Below, one piece after another: positions 1 through 42,963 of a DNA stretch of 42,963 nucleotides. Source of the DNA: a virus; IMG/VR virus record IMGVR_UViG_3300043787_000124, positions 1 to 42,963 of that record; one strand, written 5' to 3'. How positions within the stretch are numbered: the first letter of the stretch is position 1; every line of letters starts with the position of its first letter. The position numbers were made by a program, and so were the translations under genes. The notes under the pieces were generated by a model. It had not been told where the DNA came from, did no database searches, and saw nothing but the letters and a program-made list of their open reading frames with translations.

Positions 1-540
1 GCGAGCTGGAGCCGTACGCCACGGTGATCGGCGAGCTGGAGCCGTACGCCTCGGTGCGCGGCGAGCTGGAGCCGTACGCCTCGGTGCGCGGCGAGCTGGA
101 GCCGTACGCCACGGTGCGCGGCGAGCTGGAGCCGTACGCCACGGTGCGCGGCGAGCTGGAGCCGTACGCCTCGGTGATCGGCGAGCTGGAGTCGTACGCC
201 ACGGTGCGCGGCGAGCTGGAGTCGTACGCCTCGGTGCGCGGCGAGCTGGAGCCGTACGCCTCGGTGCGCGGCGAGCTGGAGTCGTACGCCTCGGTGCGCG
301 GCGAGCTGGAGCCGTACGCCTCGGTGATCGGCGAGCTGGAGCCGTACGCCTCGGTGCGCGGCGAGCTGGAGCCGTACGCCACGGTGCGCGGCGAGCTGGA
401 GCCGTACGCCACGGTGATCGGCGAGCTGGAGCCGTACGCCTCGGTGATCGGCGAGCTGGAGCCGTACGCCTCGGTGCGCGGCGAGCTGGAGTCGTACGCC
501 ACGGTGATCGGCGAGCTGGAGTCGTGCGCCACGAGGGTGG
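1..540. repeat. 30-bp tandem repeat tract, left end
   Basis: Seventeen regular 30-bp units begin at 1, 31, 61 and so on to 481, and a degenerate unit begins at 511. Units differ only at a few bases: c/t in the 12th position, a/t at the 21st and at/cg at positions 27-28. All other bases are identical between copies, which implies recent expansion or homogenisation. The tract codes for the decapeptides on the minus strand and has no spacers. Confidence 0.95.
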
Positions 541-688
541 GCCGGGCGGTCCCCTTCACCCTGATGACGTGGCCGGCCGGGATGTCGCGGATCTCGTAGC
601 GGCCGTCGGTCTCGATGACGGGGTAGTCGCCGGCCGCGATGGCCGCGTTGAATGCGGCCTGGTCGCTGACGGGGATGTCCTTGTACAC
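1..688 (-). CDS. Decapeptide-repeat protein, N-terminal part (continues across the window junction)
   Basis: The GTG start at 688-686 follows a GAAAGG ribosome site by 6 bases. About 50 non-repeated residues (beginning VYKDIPVSDQAAFNAAIAAG) are followed by tandem ten-residue units of the form T-[V/E]-A-[Y/H]-[G/D]-S-S-S-P-[I/R] to the window edge. No stop occurs, so the gene is cut by the edge. With the 64-base terminal overlap removed the frame joins exactly to the C-terminal part at 42094-42963, giving a protein of about 497 residues. Regular A-x-D/G-S-S decapeptides are known in actinophage proteins and are usually modelled as a beta-helix or fibre-like stack. The function is unknown and no catalytic motif is visible. 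It sits in the early leftward gene set, not among the tail genes. Confidence 0.8.
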   Translation of the reverse strand, partial: MYKDIPVSDQAAFNAAIAAGDYPVIETDGRYEIRDIPAGHVIRVKGTARPTLVAHDSSSPITVAYDSSSPRTEAYGSSSPITEAYGSSSPITVAYGSSSPRTVAYGSSSPRTEAYGSSSPITEAYGSSSPRTEAYDSSSPRTEAYGSSSPRTEAYDSSSPRTVAYDSSSPITEAYGSSSPRTVAYGSSSPRTVAYGSSSPRTEAYGSSSPRTEAYGSSSPITVAYGSSS

Positions 689-761: not shown

Positions 762-1208
762 TCAGTGTTCGGAGGGCTCGTCCGCGTCGTCGGCGAACAG
801 GTCCTGCGCCAACTGCGTGAGGTCCGCGAGCTCGGCGCGGTGCGGTGCGAGGCGGCGGGTGACGTACAGGTCGGGCGCGTGCCGGATCGCGGTGATCCGC
901 CACGCGGGGGGACGGCGGCGCTCCGCAGCGATCCGGGCGCGCCGGGTGGTGCGGTGGTCGACCCACTCGCCGACCCGGACGACGCCCAGCGCGAGCAGCC
1001 CGATCAGCAGGAACGCGAGCAGCAGCCCGACCGCGGTCAGGCGGCTGTTCAAGTACGCGTCGTGCCACGTGCGCGCCGCGGCGTGGTCCAGGACGGTGGA
1101 GAACCGCTCCTGGTGGCCGACCGCGTACGCCTCAACTTCGAGGGCGGCGACCATGCCTAGGCCGGTGCAGCCGAGCACGACGACGGCGAACCGCGTACGC
1201 GCGCTCAC
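762..1208 (-). CDS. Membrane protein with two predicted TM segments (148 aa)
   Basis: The GTG start at 1208 follows GAGAGG and overlaps the preceding stop as GTGA, typical of coupled phage genes. An N-terminal hydrophobic segment (about residues 6-20) and a second one (about 58-75, rich in L, A and I) suggest two membrane passes with a long basic C-terminal cytoplasmic tail. It is the last gene of the cluster before the 720-748 hairpin. I do not recognise the family. A membrane-located early function such as superinfection exclusion is possible but nothing in the sequence proves it. Confidence 0.7.
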   Translation of the reverse strand: MSARTRFAVVVLGCTGLGMVAALEVEAYAVGHQERFSTVLDHAAARTWHDAYLNSRLTAVGLLLAFLLIGLLALGVVRVGEWVDHRTTRRARIAAERRRPPAWRITAIRHAPDLYVTRRLAPHRAELADLTQLAQDLFADDADEPSEH

Positions 1209-1486
1209 CGCTTGCCTCTCTTCGCGCGATGGGTGCGGGCGTACTCGCGGTGGTATTCGCGGTGCGCGGCCGCGCACGGCTCGCACGGCTCGCACGGCTC
1301 CTCGCTGTGGTACTGGTGCGCCATCCACCCGGCGCGGGTACCGCACCGGTCGCGCTGGATCGGTGCTGTCTTCAGGCCCTTCCCGAGCCTGCGCCCGGGG
1401 GGCGCCGCAGAGGGCTTGGGTGCGGGTGCGGCGGGGATGGGCTCGCTGGCGATGCGCACGATGCCGCCCGCGGTGATGGACTGCAT
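1205..1486 (-). CDS. Small Cys/His-containing protein (93 aa)
   Basis: The start is ATG 1486 and overlaps the upstream stop (ATGA). The C-terminal half has the pattern CGTRAG-x-H-x6-EEPCEPCEPC followed by a basic helix (HREYHREYARTHRAKRGKR). This CG..AG...H...E.PC..C..A pattern recurs in many actinobacterial and actinophage small proteins and probably binds zinc. The first 50 residues are low in complexity (Pro, Ala, Lys). A nucleic-acid-binding role is plausible from the basic tail but is inferred. Confidence 0.7.
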   Translation of the reverse strand: MQSITAGGIVRIASEPIPAAPAPKPSAAPPGRRLGKGLKTAPIQRDRCGTRAGWMAHQYHSEEPCEPCEPCAAAHREYHREYARTHRAKRGKR

Positions 1487-1692
1487 CAGGCACCCCTCTT
1501 CGCCGAGCACCGCTTGCACAGCGGGAGCGCCGCGACGCGGTCGTATTCGCGCTGTGAGCCGGTGCCGAGCCAGCCGGTCCCGAACGGGGGGGTCACGCCG
1601 CACAGGGCGGCCACGCGGTCGTTCGGGCCGTCGCCGAAGCCGAGCACGTGCACGCGGCGGGAGTGGGGGGACGTGTAGACGAGGTAGCTCAC
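1486..1692 (-). CDS. Small protein with possible zinc-binding cysteines (68 aa)
   Basis: The GTG start at 1692 is preceded by GAAGGGCGG and overlaps the upstream stop. A beta-rich N-terminus is followed by ALCGV and, near the end, LPLCKRC, a spaced Cys and CxxC arrangement that could hold one metal ion. The general layout resembles small actinobacterial proteins with a CG...W...LCxxC pattern. No enzymatic motif is visible. Confidence 0.65.
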   Translation of the reverse strand: MSYLVYTSPHSRRVHVLGFGDGPNDRVAALCGVTPPFGTGWLGTGSQREYDRVAALPLCKRCSAKRGA

Positions 1693-1841
1693 CGCACGCC
1701 GCCCTTCTCGCGCCGGGCCATGTGCCCGTCGGGTGTGCGGCGCCGGTAGGCGGGCGCTCGCAGTCCGGCACGGAACTGCACGGCGAGCAGGATCACGGCG
1801 GCGGCCACGGCTAGCGCTGCGGAGGTCGAGGTCTCGGCCAT
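1689..1841 (-). CDS. Single-pass membrane peptide (50 aa)
   Basis: The start is ATG 1841, one base downstream of the preceding gene's stop. Residues about 7-22 (SAALAVAAAVILLAVQF) form one transmembrane helix, followed by a basic C-terminus. It overlaps the next gene by 4 bases. Its position in the tightly packed early operon supports translation; the function is unknown. Confidence 0.6.
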   Translation of the reverse strand: MAETSTSAALAVAAAVILLAVQFRAGLRAPAYRRRTPDGHMARREKGGVR

Positions 1842-1986: not shown

Positions 1987-2510
1987 GACGCCGACACCTC
2001 CTCGACGCGCTCGTACTCGCACTCCTGGTCGTAGTCGCCCTCGTAGTCGGGACCCGACCCGGACGCCCGCACCCGGTACGTGCCGGACTCCAGCGGACCG
2101 CCGTTGTAGTCGTAGTGTTCGTTCACTTCTTCCGCCGTCGGGCAGTGGTAGTACCGGTGCGCCTCCGGGCAGTCCGCGTGCTTGCCCACGGCGCACGCTG
2201 CGCACGGGGTGAACGGGTAGCACGCGCGGCAGGCGCAGCCGAGGAAGCCGCCGTGCGTCTGCAGGTGGACCGTGTCGCCGCGCTGGCGGTCGTGCTCGCA
2301 GCAGCACACGTCGTCCCCGTCCTTGGAATTGCGGCACTCGTCGGGGTGCGTCAGCTCCCGGTCGACCTCCGCCTCGGTGTCCTCCCCCGGCTGCGCGTGC
2401 CCGTTGCAGTGGCTGTTCGCGTCGAAGTCGGCGCACTGGTCGCTGACGTCGTCGTGGTAGTGCACGACGGTCACGACGAGCGTGTGCCACGGGTCGCGCC
2501 AATCGCTCAC
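1983..2510 (-). CDS. Cys- and His-rich acidic protein (175 aa)
   Basis: The GTG start at 2510 overlaps the stop of the annealing-protein gene. The protein has more than a dozen cysteines, including DVCCCEHD, CACRACYPFTPCAACAVG and KHADC, plus many His and Asp/Glu. This suggests binding of several metal ions. The C-terminus is strongly acidic (DYEGDYDQECEYERVEEVS). I do not recognise a family. Coupling to the recombination protein suggests a shared expression window but not necessarily a shared function. Confidence 0.7.
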   Translation of the reverse strand: MSDWRDPWHTLVVTVVHYHDDVSDQCADFDANSHCNGHAQPGEDTEAEVDRELTHPDECRNSKDGDDVCCCEHDRQRGDTVHLQTHGGFLGCACRACYPFTPCAACAVGKHADCPEAHRYYHCPTAEEVNEHYDYNGGPLESGTYRVRASGSGPDYEGDYDQECEYERVEEVSAS

Positions 2511-3619
2511 GCCGCCACCTGCTCCCGCTTCAGGTCCTGGAACCTCGCGGAGCCCATGTCGCCGAGCCGCTTCATCTGCGCCTCGTCCAGCAGCCCGTAC
2601 GACGCCGCCGTCTCGGCCTCGGCCCTGAGCGCGGCCAGCGCGTCCACAGTCGGGGCGTCGGCGATCAGCCGGTCCAGACGCCCGAGCTCCTTCTCGCGCG
2701 CCGCGTCCGGCGCGAGCTGCACCGGCGCCGCGTGCACCGGACCCGGCAGTTCGCCGGCCCCGTACACGGGCGCCGGGTTGCGCTGCCGCATCGGACGCGG
2801 CTCGAACTTCGACAACTCGTCGATAGCCGTCTTGCCCTCGACGTACGTGAGCTCCTTCAGCGACCCGATCGTGCGGCCGGTCAGCTGCGACGCCCACTCG
2901 TGCCGGGCGTCCCCGCTGACGTCGAGCCGTTCCCGCAGCATGGCGTTGACCTTGCGGACCATCGGGTCGGTGATGTACCCGTCGGCCGTCCGGTTCGGGG
3001 CCGTACGCTGCTGCGCAGGCGCAGGGGTCGACCACTCGTCCGGCGGCGGCGGCGCGCCCTGCTCGGCGCGCGCCTTGCGCTCGAACGCCGCCTGCGCGTC
3101 CTGGGCCGTCGGCTGCGCCTGCTGCGGCTCCTCAGACCCCTGCTTCTCGTGCAGGTCCGTCTTCGCCCAAAGGTTCAACGCCCACCCGAAACGCATCGCC
3201 GCATTGCGCAGCGCGTCCCCGATCACCTCCTTCACCAGGTCGCCCTTGGCCTTGTTCCCGGTGCCGTTCTCCGCCGAGCCGTAACCGAGCCGGGTCACCC
3301 CGCACACGGTCAACCTGATCCACAGGCCGCCGAACTGGTCGAACTTCGGCAGCCCGTCCCCGTCGAACGCCAGCGGCTCCCAGGACCACCCCGGGTCGGC
3401 GTCCAGCAGCGCGTCCGTGGTCTCGGCGTGCCCGACGTAGTCGAGGTGGATGTGCTGCGTGGACACCCACGCGGCGCACACGTGGCACTTGGCCTTGGCG
3501 TGCTTCTCGCACGTGCCCTTGTTTTTGGTGCAGTTGCCGCACGTGACGCGCGGCAGCTTGCCGACCAGGGTGGCCGGGACCTCCCGGCGCAGGAACGCCA
3601 GGCCCTCTTGCGGTGTCAT
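2507..3619 (-). CDS. Rad52-like single-strand annealing protein (370 aa)
   Basis: This is the likely recombination mediator that anneals complementary single strands during phage replication and repair. The ATG start at 3619 overlaps the upstream stop as ATGA. Residues about 55-160 carry the Rad52/Rad22-type core: HLDYVGHAETTDALLDADP, then PGWSWEPL, a beta-strand block ending in CGVTRLGYG, and a helix GDALRNAAMRFGWALNLW. An N-terminal Cys cluster (C27, C30, C37, C45, C48) interrupts the usual start of the fold and looks like a zinc knuckle. The C-terminal 200 residues are linker plus a helical region and may bind partners. The family call rests on pattern recognition. Confidence 0.75.
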   Translation of the reverse strand: MTPQEGLAFLRREVPATLVGKLPRVTCGNCTKNKGTCEKHAKAKCHVCAAWVSTQHIHLDYVGHAETTDALLDADPGWSWEPLAFDGDGLPKFDQFGGLWIRLTVCGVTRLGYGSAENGTGNKAKGDLVKEVIGDALRNAAMRFGWALNLWAKTDLHEKQGSEEPQQAQPTAQDAQAAFERKARAEQGAPPPPDEWSTPAPAQQRTAPNRTADGYITDPMVRKVNAMLRERLDVSGDARHEWASQLTGRTIGSLKELTYVEGKTAIDELSKFEPRPMRQRNPAPVYGAGELPGPVHAAPVQLAPDAAREKELGRLDRLIADAPTVDALAALRAEAETAASYGLLDEAQMKRLGDMGSARFQDLKREQVAA

Positions 3620-3921
3620 CGGTTCCCCTGCTGCCGGTTGGTCGGGACGTAGTAGAAGCGGATGCGCACCCCGTCGAAACGCCCGGACGTGGAGGTCGTG
3701 CCGTCCGGCGCCGTGTGCGCGGGCGTGTCCAACGCGGCGGCGATCCGCGCGACGCGGTCCGCGCCGAGCAGGTCCGATGTCGCGTACACCAGCACCGGGA
3801 TGACCGCCGGCACCGGGACCGCCGGGTGGTTTTCGAGCCATGCGGCCGCGGTGCGCAGCCCGCGGATGCGGTCCGCGCGCGCCTGCGCGCCGGCGACCGC
3901 GTCGTGGTCGGCGAAAGCCAT
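3616..3921 (-). CDS. Hypothetical protein (101 aa)
   Basis: The start is ATG 3921, which touches the stop of the upstream gene. An N-terminal helical region (AVAGAQARADRIRGLRTAAAWL) is followed by a compact alpha/beta stretch ending FDGVRIRFYYVPTNRQQGNR. It is 4-base coupled to the annealing protein. No recognised motif. Confidence 0.65.
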   Translation of the reverse strand: MAFADHDAVAGAQARADRIRGLRTAAAWLENHPAVPVPAVIPVLVYATSDLLGADRVARIAAALDTPAHTAPDGTTSTSGRFDGVRIRFYYVPTNRQQGNR

Positions 3922-4313
3922 CACGCACTCACCACCCGGCGCGGATCGACGTGGCAGCCCGCGCAACCGTCGGCGCACACCCCGTCGGGGCCGCGGTCGT
4001 GGACGACGGGCTCGCCGTGCACGGCTTCCAGGTACTCCAGCGGGGTACGCGCCTGCGACCGGCACCGGTGCGTCGCGTACACCGTCACCACGGCGTGCGG
4101 CTGCACGCTGCGGGCCCGGGAGTACCGCACGGAGTAGGCGGCGTCCAGGGGGCGTTCCTCGACCGCGGTCTCGCAGCCCAGGACCGCGGCCCAGGCGCGC
4201 ACGGCGCCCTCGTCGCGCACCCGGATCGCCAGGGACACCCTGGTCGCGGTGCGGTTCATGCCGAGGGCGAGGATCGGCGGGAGGTTCTCGGCGGCGATCG
4301 ACAGGATGCTCAC
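3921..4313 (-). CDS. Hypothetical protein with C-terminal Cys cluster (130 aa)
   Basis: The GTG start at 4313 overlaps the upstream stop. The N-terminal half looks alpha/beta (NLPPILALGMNRTATRVSLA then AVRAWAAVLG). The C-terminal region contains THRCRSQARTPLEYLEAVHG and DGVCADGCAGCHVDP, a possible small zinc site with H and C ligands. The family is not recognised. Confidence 0.65.
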   Translation of the reverse strand: MSILSIAAENLPPILALGMNRTATRVSLAIRVRDEGAVRAWAAVLGCETAVEERPLDAAYSVRYSRARSVQPHAVVTVYATHRCRSQARTPLEYLEAVHGEPVVHDRGPDGVCADGCAGCHVDPRRVVSA

Positions 4314-8200: not shown

Positions 8201-8274
8201 AGCAGGGTGGAGCAGTTCGGTAGCTCGTTGGGCTCATAACCCAGAGGTCGCGGGTTCGAATCCCGTCCCTGCCA
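8201..8274 (+). tRNA. Initiator-type tRNA-fMet (CAT)
   Basis: A full cloverleaf is present: acceptor 8201-8207 with 8267-8273, D stem 8210-8213 with 8223-8226, anticodon stem-loop 8228-8244 with CAT at 8235-8237, T arm 8250-8266, discriminator A 8274. Three initiator hallmarks are visible: a mismatch at 1:72 (A 8201, C 8273), an A11:U24 pair, and three consecutive G:C pairs at the base of the anticodon stem. CCA is not encoded. A -10-like TATCCT (8189-8194) lies 6 bases upstream. It could be a functional phage tRNA or host tRNA captured at an attachment site. Confidence 0.8.
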
Positions 8275-8340
8275 CGGTCGCCGGTTCGAGTCCGACCGGG
8301 TCTTCGGGCCTGTAGCTCGGTCGGGAGAGCAGCGCAGCGC
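8275..8340 (+). ncRNA. tRNA-like element with 3' half preceding 5' half
   Basis: A variable-loop and T-arm-like segment comes first (8275-8296), followed by a strand (8297-8302) that pairs with 8307-8312 across a UUCG loop, with C:G closure. Then UA and a D-arm-like stem-loop follow (8315-8318 pairing with 8327-8330). This is the order T arm, closed acceptor, D arm, as in a circularly permuted tRNA, or the junction of two degraded tandem tRNA genes. An anticodon arm cannot be completed convincingly: only three pairs form between 8334-8336 and 8270-8272. The role is unknown. Confidence 0.4.
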
Positions 8341-37061: not shown

Positions 37062-37363
37062 CAGTGACGGCAGTGACAGCAAAACCGCATCTTCCGTATG
37101 AGCGCCCCTGTGCGTGCGCGCGTTTCAGGGGCCGATAGCTCCCGGACTGCTGTCACTGCTGTCACTGTTCGGCTCCTGGTCTGCGCTGATATGGGTTTCT
37201 TGCTGTCACTGTTGCTGTCACTGTTGCTGTCACTGCCGTGGGATGAAGCGGGACATGGCGGACAAGAGATTGGTCTAGACCGATTCAGTTCCACGGGTCC
37301 GGGTCCTCCGGCAGTGACAGCAACTCCTCGGATTCGGGCTCGTCCAGTGACAGCAGCGACAGC
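37062..37363. repeat. Iteron cluster, candidate replication origin
   Basis: The 10-mer CAGTGACAGC (or its complement GCTGTCACTG) occurs exactly at 37071, 37149, 37158, 37202, 37214, 37226, 37312 and 37345, with near copies at 37062 and 37354. Three copies repeat at a 12-base period. Both orientations occur. The cluster spans the 235-base gap after the primase-helicase gene and its last codons. Iterons beside a replication initiator-type helicase are the usual sign of an origin. Confidence 0.6.
37269..37284. promoter_or_regulatory. Near-perfect 16-bp palindrome beside the helicase stop
   Basis: ATTGGTCTAGACCGAT is symmetric except for one wobble pair and contains CTAG, which is rare in GC-rich actinobacterial DNA. 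It ends one base before the helicase stop codon and sits among the iterons. It may be an operator or an initiator-binding element of the origin. Confidence 0.5.
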
Positions 37364-42093: not shown

Positions 42094-42963
42094 CTAGTCG
42101 TTGTCCGCAGGGTCCGGCTCGGCGTCGTCGCGGAACAGCTCGTCGGAGTGCTCCGTGCCGGGACGCGGGTCGCCGTCGGGCTCCTCGACGTCGACGGTCG
42201 CGGCGCCCCCGTCGGTCTGCGCGATCGTGAACGACGCCTCCGCGCAGATCTCACCCACCAGCTCCCGCAAGTCGTCCATCGAGTTGCTGCCGTGGAACAG
42301 CCGGTCGGCCGTCGGGCCGTCCACGCCCAGCACCGCCCGCGCACCGGCCGAGATCGCGACGTGCTCCCGCACGAACCGACTCCGCAGCGACTCCGGCAGC
42401 GACGCCACCTCGACCGTCTTCGCCGACACATCCATCCGCGCGCCGACAGTGAGCAGCGCGTGGCCGCCGAAGCAATACCGGGTGCCGCACGGCGACTCGT
42501 ACGCCCAGTCGCCCTGGTCCCACTCCTCCGGGTGCGCCTCGACGCGCGCGAGCGTGTCGAGCACCGCCTCCGGATTGGTGGTGAGCGGCACGCGGTGCGT
42601 CAGCGCGCCGCCGGTGGCGGTGACCTCCCCGTTGACGCGGACGGTGACGTGCTCGTCGGCGGTGACGGTGCCGCGGCCGGTGTGAAGAACACTCGAATAG
42701 TCGTGCGCCTCGGTGATCGGCGAGCTGGAGTCGTGCGCCTCGGTGATCGGCGAGCTGGAGCCGTACGCCACGGTGATCGGCGAGCTGGAGCCGTACGCCT
42801 CGGTGCGCGGCGAGCTGGAGCCGTACGCCACGGTGATCGGCGAGCTGGAGCCGTACGCCTCGGTGCGCGGCGAGCTGGAGCCGTACGCCACGGTGCGCGG
42901 CGAGCTGGAGCCGTACGCCACGGTGATCGGCGAGCTGGAGCCGTACGCCTCGGTGCGCGGCGA
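42094..42963 (-). CDS. Decapeptide-repeat protein, C-terminal part
   Basis: No start is needed at the edge: this frame is the in-phase continuation of the 1-688 gene once the 64-base overlap is removed. Eight regular decapeptides and a degenerate one end near residue 90 of this segment. Then a structured domain follows: TADEHVTVRVNGEVTATGGA, HPEEWDQGDWAYESPCGTRY, CFGGHALLTVGARMDVSAKT and LGVDGPTADRLFHGSNSMDD. The CGT..C..GHA and late LF...NS pattern recurs in actinophage proteins of unknown function. The tail is acidic (DELFRDDAEPDPADND). Stop TAG 42094-42096. Confidence 0.8.
   Translation of the reverse strand, partial: SPRTEAYGSSSPITVAYGSSSPRTVAYGSSSPRTEAYGSSSPITVAYGSSSPRTEAYGSSSPITVAYGSSSPITEAHDSSSPITEAHDYSSVLHTGRGTVTADEHVTVRVNGEVTATGGALTHRVPLTTNPEAVLDTLARVEAHPEEWDQGDWAYESPCGTRYCFGGHALLTVGARMDVSAKTVEVASLPESLRSRFVREHVAISAGARAVLGVDGPTADRLFHGSNSMDDLRELVGEICAEASFTIAQTDGGAATVDVEEPDGDPRPGTEHSDELFRDDAEPDPADND
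42690..42963. repeat. 30-bp tandem repeat tract, right end
   Basis: Eight full units start at 42720 and repeat every 30 bases, plus 4 bases of a ninth, preceded by a degenerate unit from about 42690. The last 64 bases (42900-42963) equal bases 1-64 exactly. Units alternate V/E and I/R codon types as at the left end. Confidence 0.95.

Follow-up and report, generated by a model that had tools for sequence, protein, structure and literature searches.

An early-region gene of a 42,963-nucleotide viral stretch (IMG/VR record IMGVR_UViG_3300043787_000124; the whole stretch is called the window below) encodes a protein of near-identical decapeptide units, which share every silent codon position and alternate between a few amino acids at fixed sites. 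With modest confidence, we favour the reading that recombination within the array, under diversifying selection, keeps reshuffling the exposed surface of this early protein, and that it is probably a tunable counter-defence factor.

Repeat gene and genomic neighbourhood

The repeat gene lies on the minus strand, starts with GTG at 686-688, runs across position 1/42963 and ends at 42094. A 30-bp array was reported by TRF at 1-530 (17.7 copies) and a second at 42702-42963 (8.7 copies). The contig ends (1-64 and 42900-42963) form an exact 64-bp terminal overlap within the repeat array, so the contig was opened inside one array and gene, and the genome is circular or terminally redundant. The array has 24 units if the ends are merged and 26 if they are abutted; positions 1-540, from which a previous interpretation of the letters (the sequence-only reading) counted more than 20 copies, hold its left part only, and the array extends further than that reading gave. 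Matches as long as two units are also found elsewhere in the array, so the terminal overlap may be a coincidence and the copy number is uncertain; at least 24 units are present, and more if the array was collapsed in assembly. The record IMGVR_UViG_3300025903_000008 (L019/L026) likewise breaks inside its own array, and the two broken contigs together indicate that such arrays split assemblies. The features of the gene and its neighbours are as follows (L017 and L021 are relatives described below).

1..538, minus strand: decapeptide array, N-terminal part, ~17.7 units of T[V/E]A[Y/H][G/D]SSSP[R/I] (TRF, codon table)
539..688, minus strand: N-terminal cap, ~50 aa (translation; 63% identical to L021 over 49 aligned residues; resembles the L017 N-terminus; folded in the L021 and L017 models)
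1205..1771, minus strand: WhiB-like regulator ORF (PHROGs phrog_22267/12112, E ~3e-5)
2507..3928, minus strand: single-strand annealing protein, recombination (PHROGs phrog_3290, E 6e-47)
42094..42699, minus strand: C-terminal globular domain and stop codon (hmmscan against PHROGs, phrog_889, E 5e-15)
42700..42963, minus strand: decapeptide array, C-terminal part, ~8.7 units, joining position 1 (TRF, overlap, codon table)

The PHROGs family phrog_889 is annotated as of unknown function, and the window domain is described as DUF6197-like. By its phrog_889 match, the window protein has the C-terminal CGT..C..GH domain of phrog_889/DUF6197 proteins; a match to DUF6197 itself was obtained for L021 only and was sub-threshold (E 0.006). 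No match to DUF7666 was found in the C-terminal half of the window protein or in L021. Pfam matches to CTD (Spt5), Prion_octapep, RT_RNaseH_2, HET-S and similar entries were rejected as low-complexity or weak chance matches.

The repeat gene comes after the WhiB-like ORF and the annealing protein gene, on the same strand as the PHROGs-identified phage genes of the window and far from the tail genes, in agreement with its earlier placement in the early region rather than at a tail locus. Most annotated relatives also have the repeat gene near WhiB, RecE or RecT genes. A PADLOC search gave nothing convincing. Elsewhere in the window, a tRNA-Met gene (8201-8275) was found on the plus strand, opposite to the PHROGs-identified phage genes, and a 765-aa ORF that has no database match contains a perfect 12-bp tandem repeat in three copies (TTGCTGTCACTG, 37200-37235).

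Unit states and codons

The window unit reads ACC G(T/A)G GCG TAC G(G/A)C TCC AGC TCG CCG (CGC/ATC), and its toggles are R (CGC) or I (ATC), E (GAG) or V (GTG), Y (TAC) or H (CAC), and G (GGC) or D (GAC). The Y/H toggle and a few further changes are confined to the array edges. Non-toggle codons (ACC, GCG, TCC, AGC, TCG, CCG) are invariant except for CTC in place of ACC in one edge unit, and the codon table of the whole array holds no synonymous difference among units. The I/R toggle is a two-base change whose intermediate codon is absent from the window units. Synonymous identity, the V/E, I/R and G/D toggles, Y/H at the edges and the missing I/R intermediate had all been described from the sequence alone, and each was recovered in the codon table. 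The same reading proposed recombination between a few parental unit types rather than drift. Recombination is upheld by the isolate comparisons given below (Redi, BabeRuth and Rebel; Raymond7), but 'few parental types' is too strong: of the eight combinations of the binary V/E, G/D and R/I sites seven occur in the window array, and no linkage was detected between the three sites (p = 0.22, 1 and 1). Sites thus reassort almost freely, and the reassorting element must be smaller than a unit.

Relatives carrying similar arrays

Relatives were obtained by pattern scans for the repeat skeleton and then by tblastn with L017; a search of viral and genome contigs with a repeat-poor query found none. 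At L010-L012, L014-L016 and L018 the DNA pattern was matched, but the reading frames hold unrelated sequence, and two genome-contig matches (L023, L024) contain no comparable array; these were set aside.

L021, from an uncultured phage, encodes a protein with the same cap, array and C-terminal domain as the window. The flanks of the two arrays are 60-63% identical in amino acids, and the same codon is used at 32 of 57 conserved four-fold residues and at a comparable 3 of 6 invariant array codons. The L021 array carries R/I, V/E, Y/H and G/D toggles with alternative codons identical to those of the window. The fixed silent codons are GCG-TCC-AGC-TCG in the window, GCC-TCG-TCG-TCG in L021 (uniform inside that array too) and GCC-TCG-TCC-CAG in L017; the silent-codon background is peculiar to each phage and, within its array, is uniform or in some near-uniform. 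Searches of the L021 phage genome with the window terminase, annealing protein and 765-aa ORF, run without a positive control, gave no match, and from this comparison the repeat gene seems to travel between phages as a module. Within L021 (L021:3227-4573), adjacent identical unit pairs numbered 8 against 1.8 expected (0 of 2000 shuffles reached 8), which suggests recent single-unit duplications.

A second group (L013, L017, L019/L026 and L020) has the unit [R/T]V[V/E]A[Y/N][G/D]SS[A/Q]P. Cultured mycobacteriophages, Gordonia phage Spooky, Dulem virus 38 and Manatee Spring podovirus were found by tblastn with L017; their units are of 8 residues, with the variable positions unchanged. In the group of Che8 gp59, a tandem 8-10 residue pattern x-V/T-[V/E]-A-[aromatic]-[G/D]-S is held in common with the window. 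The V/E toggle of Spooky is GTA/GAA, not GTG/GAG, so that the same alternative stands on a different fixed third base.

Predicted fold of the array

The array of L017 was modelled by AlphaFold with a pLDDT of 92-97 over most of its length and with one four-residue strand per ten residues, giving a parallel-strand solenoid of ~20 residues per coil, as in a right-handed beta-helix. By VIA-align, the L017 model matched TibA (4q1q; Z 18.4, rmsd 2.8 over 216 residues) and antigen 43 (Z 16-18), and phage tailspikes at lower scores; Foldseek alone gave no significant match for the L017 or L021 model. Strands are spaced alike in the prediction for L021, which has an array pLDDT of ~80, an unfolded C-terminal domain and one good model among five. 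A beta-solenoid fold of the array is thus well supported, as a prediction, in relatives, and the beta-helix stack that had been suggested for modelling is predicted for L017 with high confidence.

Within each unit the strand reads R/I-T-V/E-A-Y, with the conserved T and A standing between the toggles. This alternation would place the toggle residues on one face; because that face contains Glu and Arg, we infer that it is the outer, exposed one. A period-2 correlation of toggles along the array, as for two units per coil with face-specific states, was tested and not found.

Array changes between related isolates

Across a 1.5-kb stretch containing the repeat gene, Redi, Hanako, PhancyPhin, Nenae, Purgamenstris and ShrimpFriedEgg are identical, and BabeRuth and Rebel each differ at two bases. 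Over both genome halves (42.6 kb), Redi and BabeRuth are separated by one single-base indel and two substitutions in total, and both substitutions fall in unit 2 of their array, where E-A-S becomes the V-A-W that is found in unit 1. Rebel mirrors this event: its unit 2 is E-A-R, the state of unit 3, and its only 2 differences from Redi in a 3.46-kb core are both in unit 2. BabeRuth keeps the first codon of unit 2, so less than a whole unit was exchanged. The simplest reading of the Redi, BabeRuth and Rebel changes is copying from a neighbouring unit, its direction being read rather than proven. The two substitutions of BabeRuth may be a single event, and the chance of one event hitting the array is ~0.002.

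Arrays also differ in length. Raymond7 has one 24-bp unit fewer, and two environmental relatives (L020 and L019/L026) that are ~90-95% identical beside the array differ in array length and order. Recombination between units and array turnover in relatives are supported by these observations. The suggested comparison of unit order across related phages therefore gave differences in both order and length; of the variable protein that had been proposed, variation in length and order among related phages is confirmed, and on/off phase variation was not borne out. In EleanorGeorge, Soul22 and Nitzel (L035, L036, L037), 1 to 3 units are left and the downstream frame is lost, an apparent decay from which the repeat gene is probably dispensable. 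Block duplications of 7 units in Manatee Spring podovirus (L027:2387-3556) and of 5 units in Squirty (L029:2501-3571) were also observed; in Manatee Spring podovirus a rare silent TCT was copied along with the duplicated block.

Selection and alternative explanations

Segregating sites in 13 arrays were 75 nonsynonymous to 4 synonymous against 252:90 available, with a binomial p of ~1e-6 that somewhat overstates the case, as kinship among the mycobacteriophage arrays leaves the 13 not fully independent. Silent diversity was nil (piS = 0) in six arrays (window, L021, L017, L019/26, L020 and Spooky). Recombination by itself would erase the amino-acid differences as well, so that selection is needed to keep the toggles, a step absent from the sequence-only reading. 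Their persistence would be due to diversifying selection, and the evolutionary mechanism as a whole is well supported.

Neutral turnover, in which the array is a structural spacer rod made uniform by slippage and unequal exchange and the toggles are unselected leftovers, would make ordinary tandem turnover of the homogenised silent sites, the Squirty and Manatee Spring block duplications and the identical pairs of L021. Such a process should, however, hit silent and replacement sites equally, where 4 and 75 were seen, and neutral concerted evolution accounts for uniform silent sites but not for the same residues being polymorphic at the same positions on differing fixed silent codons; we regard it as improbable. 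Scarcely more probable is a virion or surface adhesin, a solenoid in the particle or secreted that varies to follow receptors. Its nearest folds are indeed the right-handed beta-helix adhesins TibA and antigen 43 and, at lower scores, phage tailspikes. A beta-helix in common shows no function, however, and in the window, as in most annotated relatives, the gene lies in the early region by recombination and WhiB genes, not by tail genes.

Directed hypermutation, by a diversity-generating retroelement or similar, could account for variation limited to a few codons, and BPP-1 has, besides a related repeat protein, a retroelement. That element has its annotated template and variable repeat at the mtd locus, not at VR2; the toggles (T/A, G/A, T/C, C/G and ATC/CGC) are not adenine-specific, and the new states of BabeRuth and Rebel copy an adjacent unit, so we consider this source of the toggles very improbable. 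Least probable of all is a mosaic made in assembly from short reads of a mixed metagenome. The window contig was opened within the array, which makes unit order and number there uncertain, but the codon states are secure, and sequenced isolates (Redi, BabeRuth, ThetaBob, Squirty and others) carry the same kind of mosaic.

Under the favoured reading of a selected, recombining surface, ~24 or more decapeptide segments of the protein would stack into a beta-solenoid rod, standing between the N-terminal cap and the C-terminal domain. The Thr and Ala of each strand would face the solenoid interior, and R/I, V/E and Y/H, with the adjacent G/D, would point outward as a combinatorial surface. Neighbouring copies would recombine, exchanging short tracts and gaining or losing units, plausibly aided by the phage's own annealing protein, and this exchange would keep silent sites uniform within each array. 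Selection for varied surfaces would preserve a few alternatives at the exposed positions, so that the same toggles recur in phages with different silent codons. The likeliest job would be to bind a variable bacterial partner, in counter-defence after the manner of Tweety gp54. This role, drawn by analogy from behaviour and gene location and not from homology, has at best an even chance of being right. A broader proposal is doubtful at present: that the arrays of unrelated phages make up one combinatorial recognition code, in which every solenoid unit supplies one of a few surface states, recombination within the array shuffles them and balancing selection holds them, so as to match or evade bacterial defence proteins as these change. 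If the array does tune counter-defence, it would offer a simple, readable system for phage adaptation to bacterial immunity in cultured Mycobacterium smegmatis phages.

Comparison with known repeat-variable proteins

TAL-effector arrays, which read DNA through helical units of 34 residues, resemble the window array in having variable residues at fixed positions in near-identical units; the likeness is one of analogy, and no homology is suggested.

Closer parallels are found in phages. In Tweety gp54, third codon positions are invariant and first and second positions vary, and selection for variation was described in 2007 (PMC2884959). Tweety escape mutants that beat the Phrann gp29/gp30 defence have an altered gp54 repeat number (2022 review, PMC9262239). 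The Tweety gp54 family (Che8 gp57, PMC gp51) is thus like the window protein in its invariant third positions; its repeat number differs among phages, and its tunable counter-defence is the role proposed here for the window protein. Unlike the window protein it has tetrapeptide AAxS repeats, reported to be typical of unstructured proteins (PMC2884959). The C-terminal half of the window protein showed no similarity to Che8 gp57 by BLASTP (best 14.6 bits, E 2.7).

The two families share a gene neighbourhood in cluster F phages; in Che8, gp59 is the second gene after gp57. Che8 gp59, ThetaBob gp59, Squirty gp51 and Redi gp44 are annotated as hypothetical, with a repeat and DUF7666, a domain found in Che8 gp59, ThetaBob gp59, Spooky gp76 and Dulem 38. 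Like the window protein, this group has a short N-terminal segment, toggles of V/E, aromatic-or-charged and G/D, near-uniform silent codons and an early location near WhiB and RecE/RecT; it differs in its 8-residue units and in a C-terminal DUF7666 in place of the phrog_889/DUF6197-like domain.

Tweety gp54 has also been likened to the VR2 region in bbp36 of Bordetella phage BMP-1, and work cited there describes repeat numbers that vary among isolates (PMC2884959). In BPP-1, a DUF7666 domain like that of the Che8 gp59 group was found in bbp36 (VR2, L059:32776-33705; E 1.7e-10), which lies beside exonuclease and annealing genes. Its 8-residue repeats toggle YR/ES/EK; it differs in its unit sequence (GTATAG..), in the reversed domain order (DUF7666 first) and in having fewer toggles. 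Repeat-variable phage proteins have so far been noted singly, as BPP-1 VR2 and Tweety gp54. The present comparison links VR2, the Che8 gp59 group and the window decapeptide protein by repeat architecture, early location and one mode of change, and DUF7666, present in many of these proteins though unmatched in the C-terminal half of the window protein, forms part of that link.
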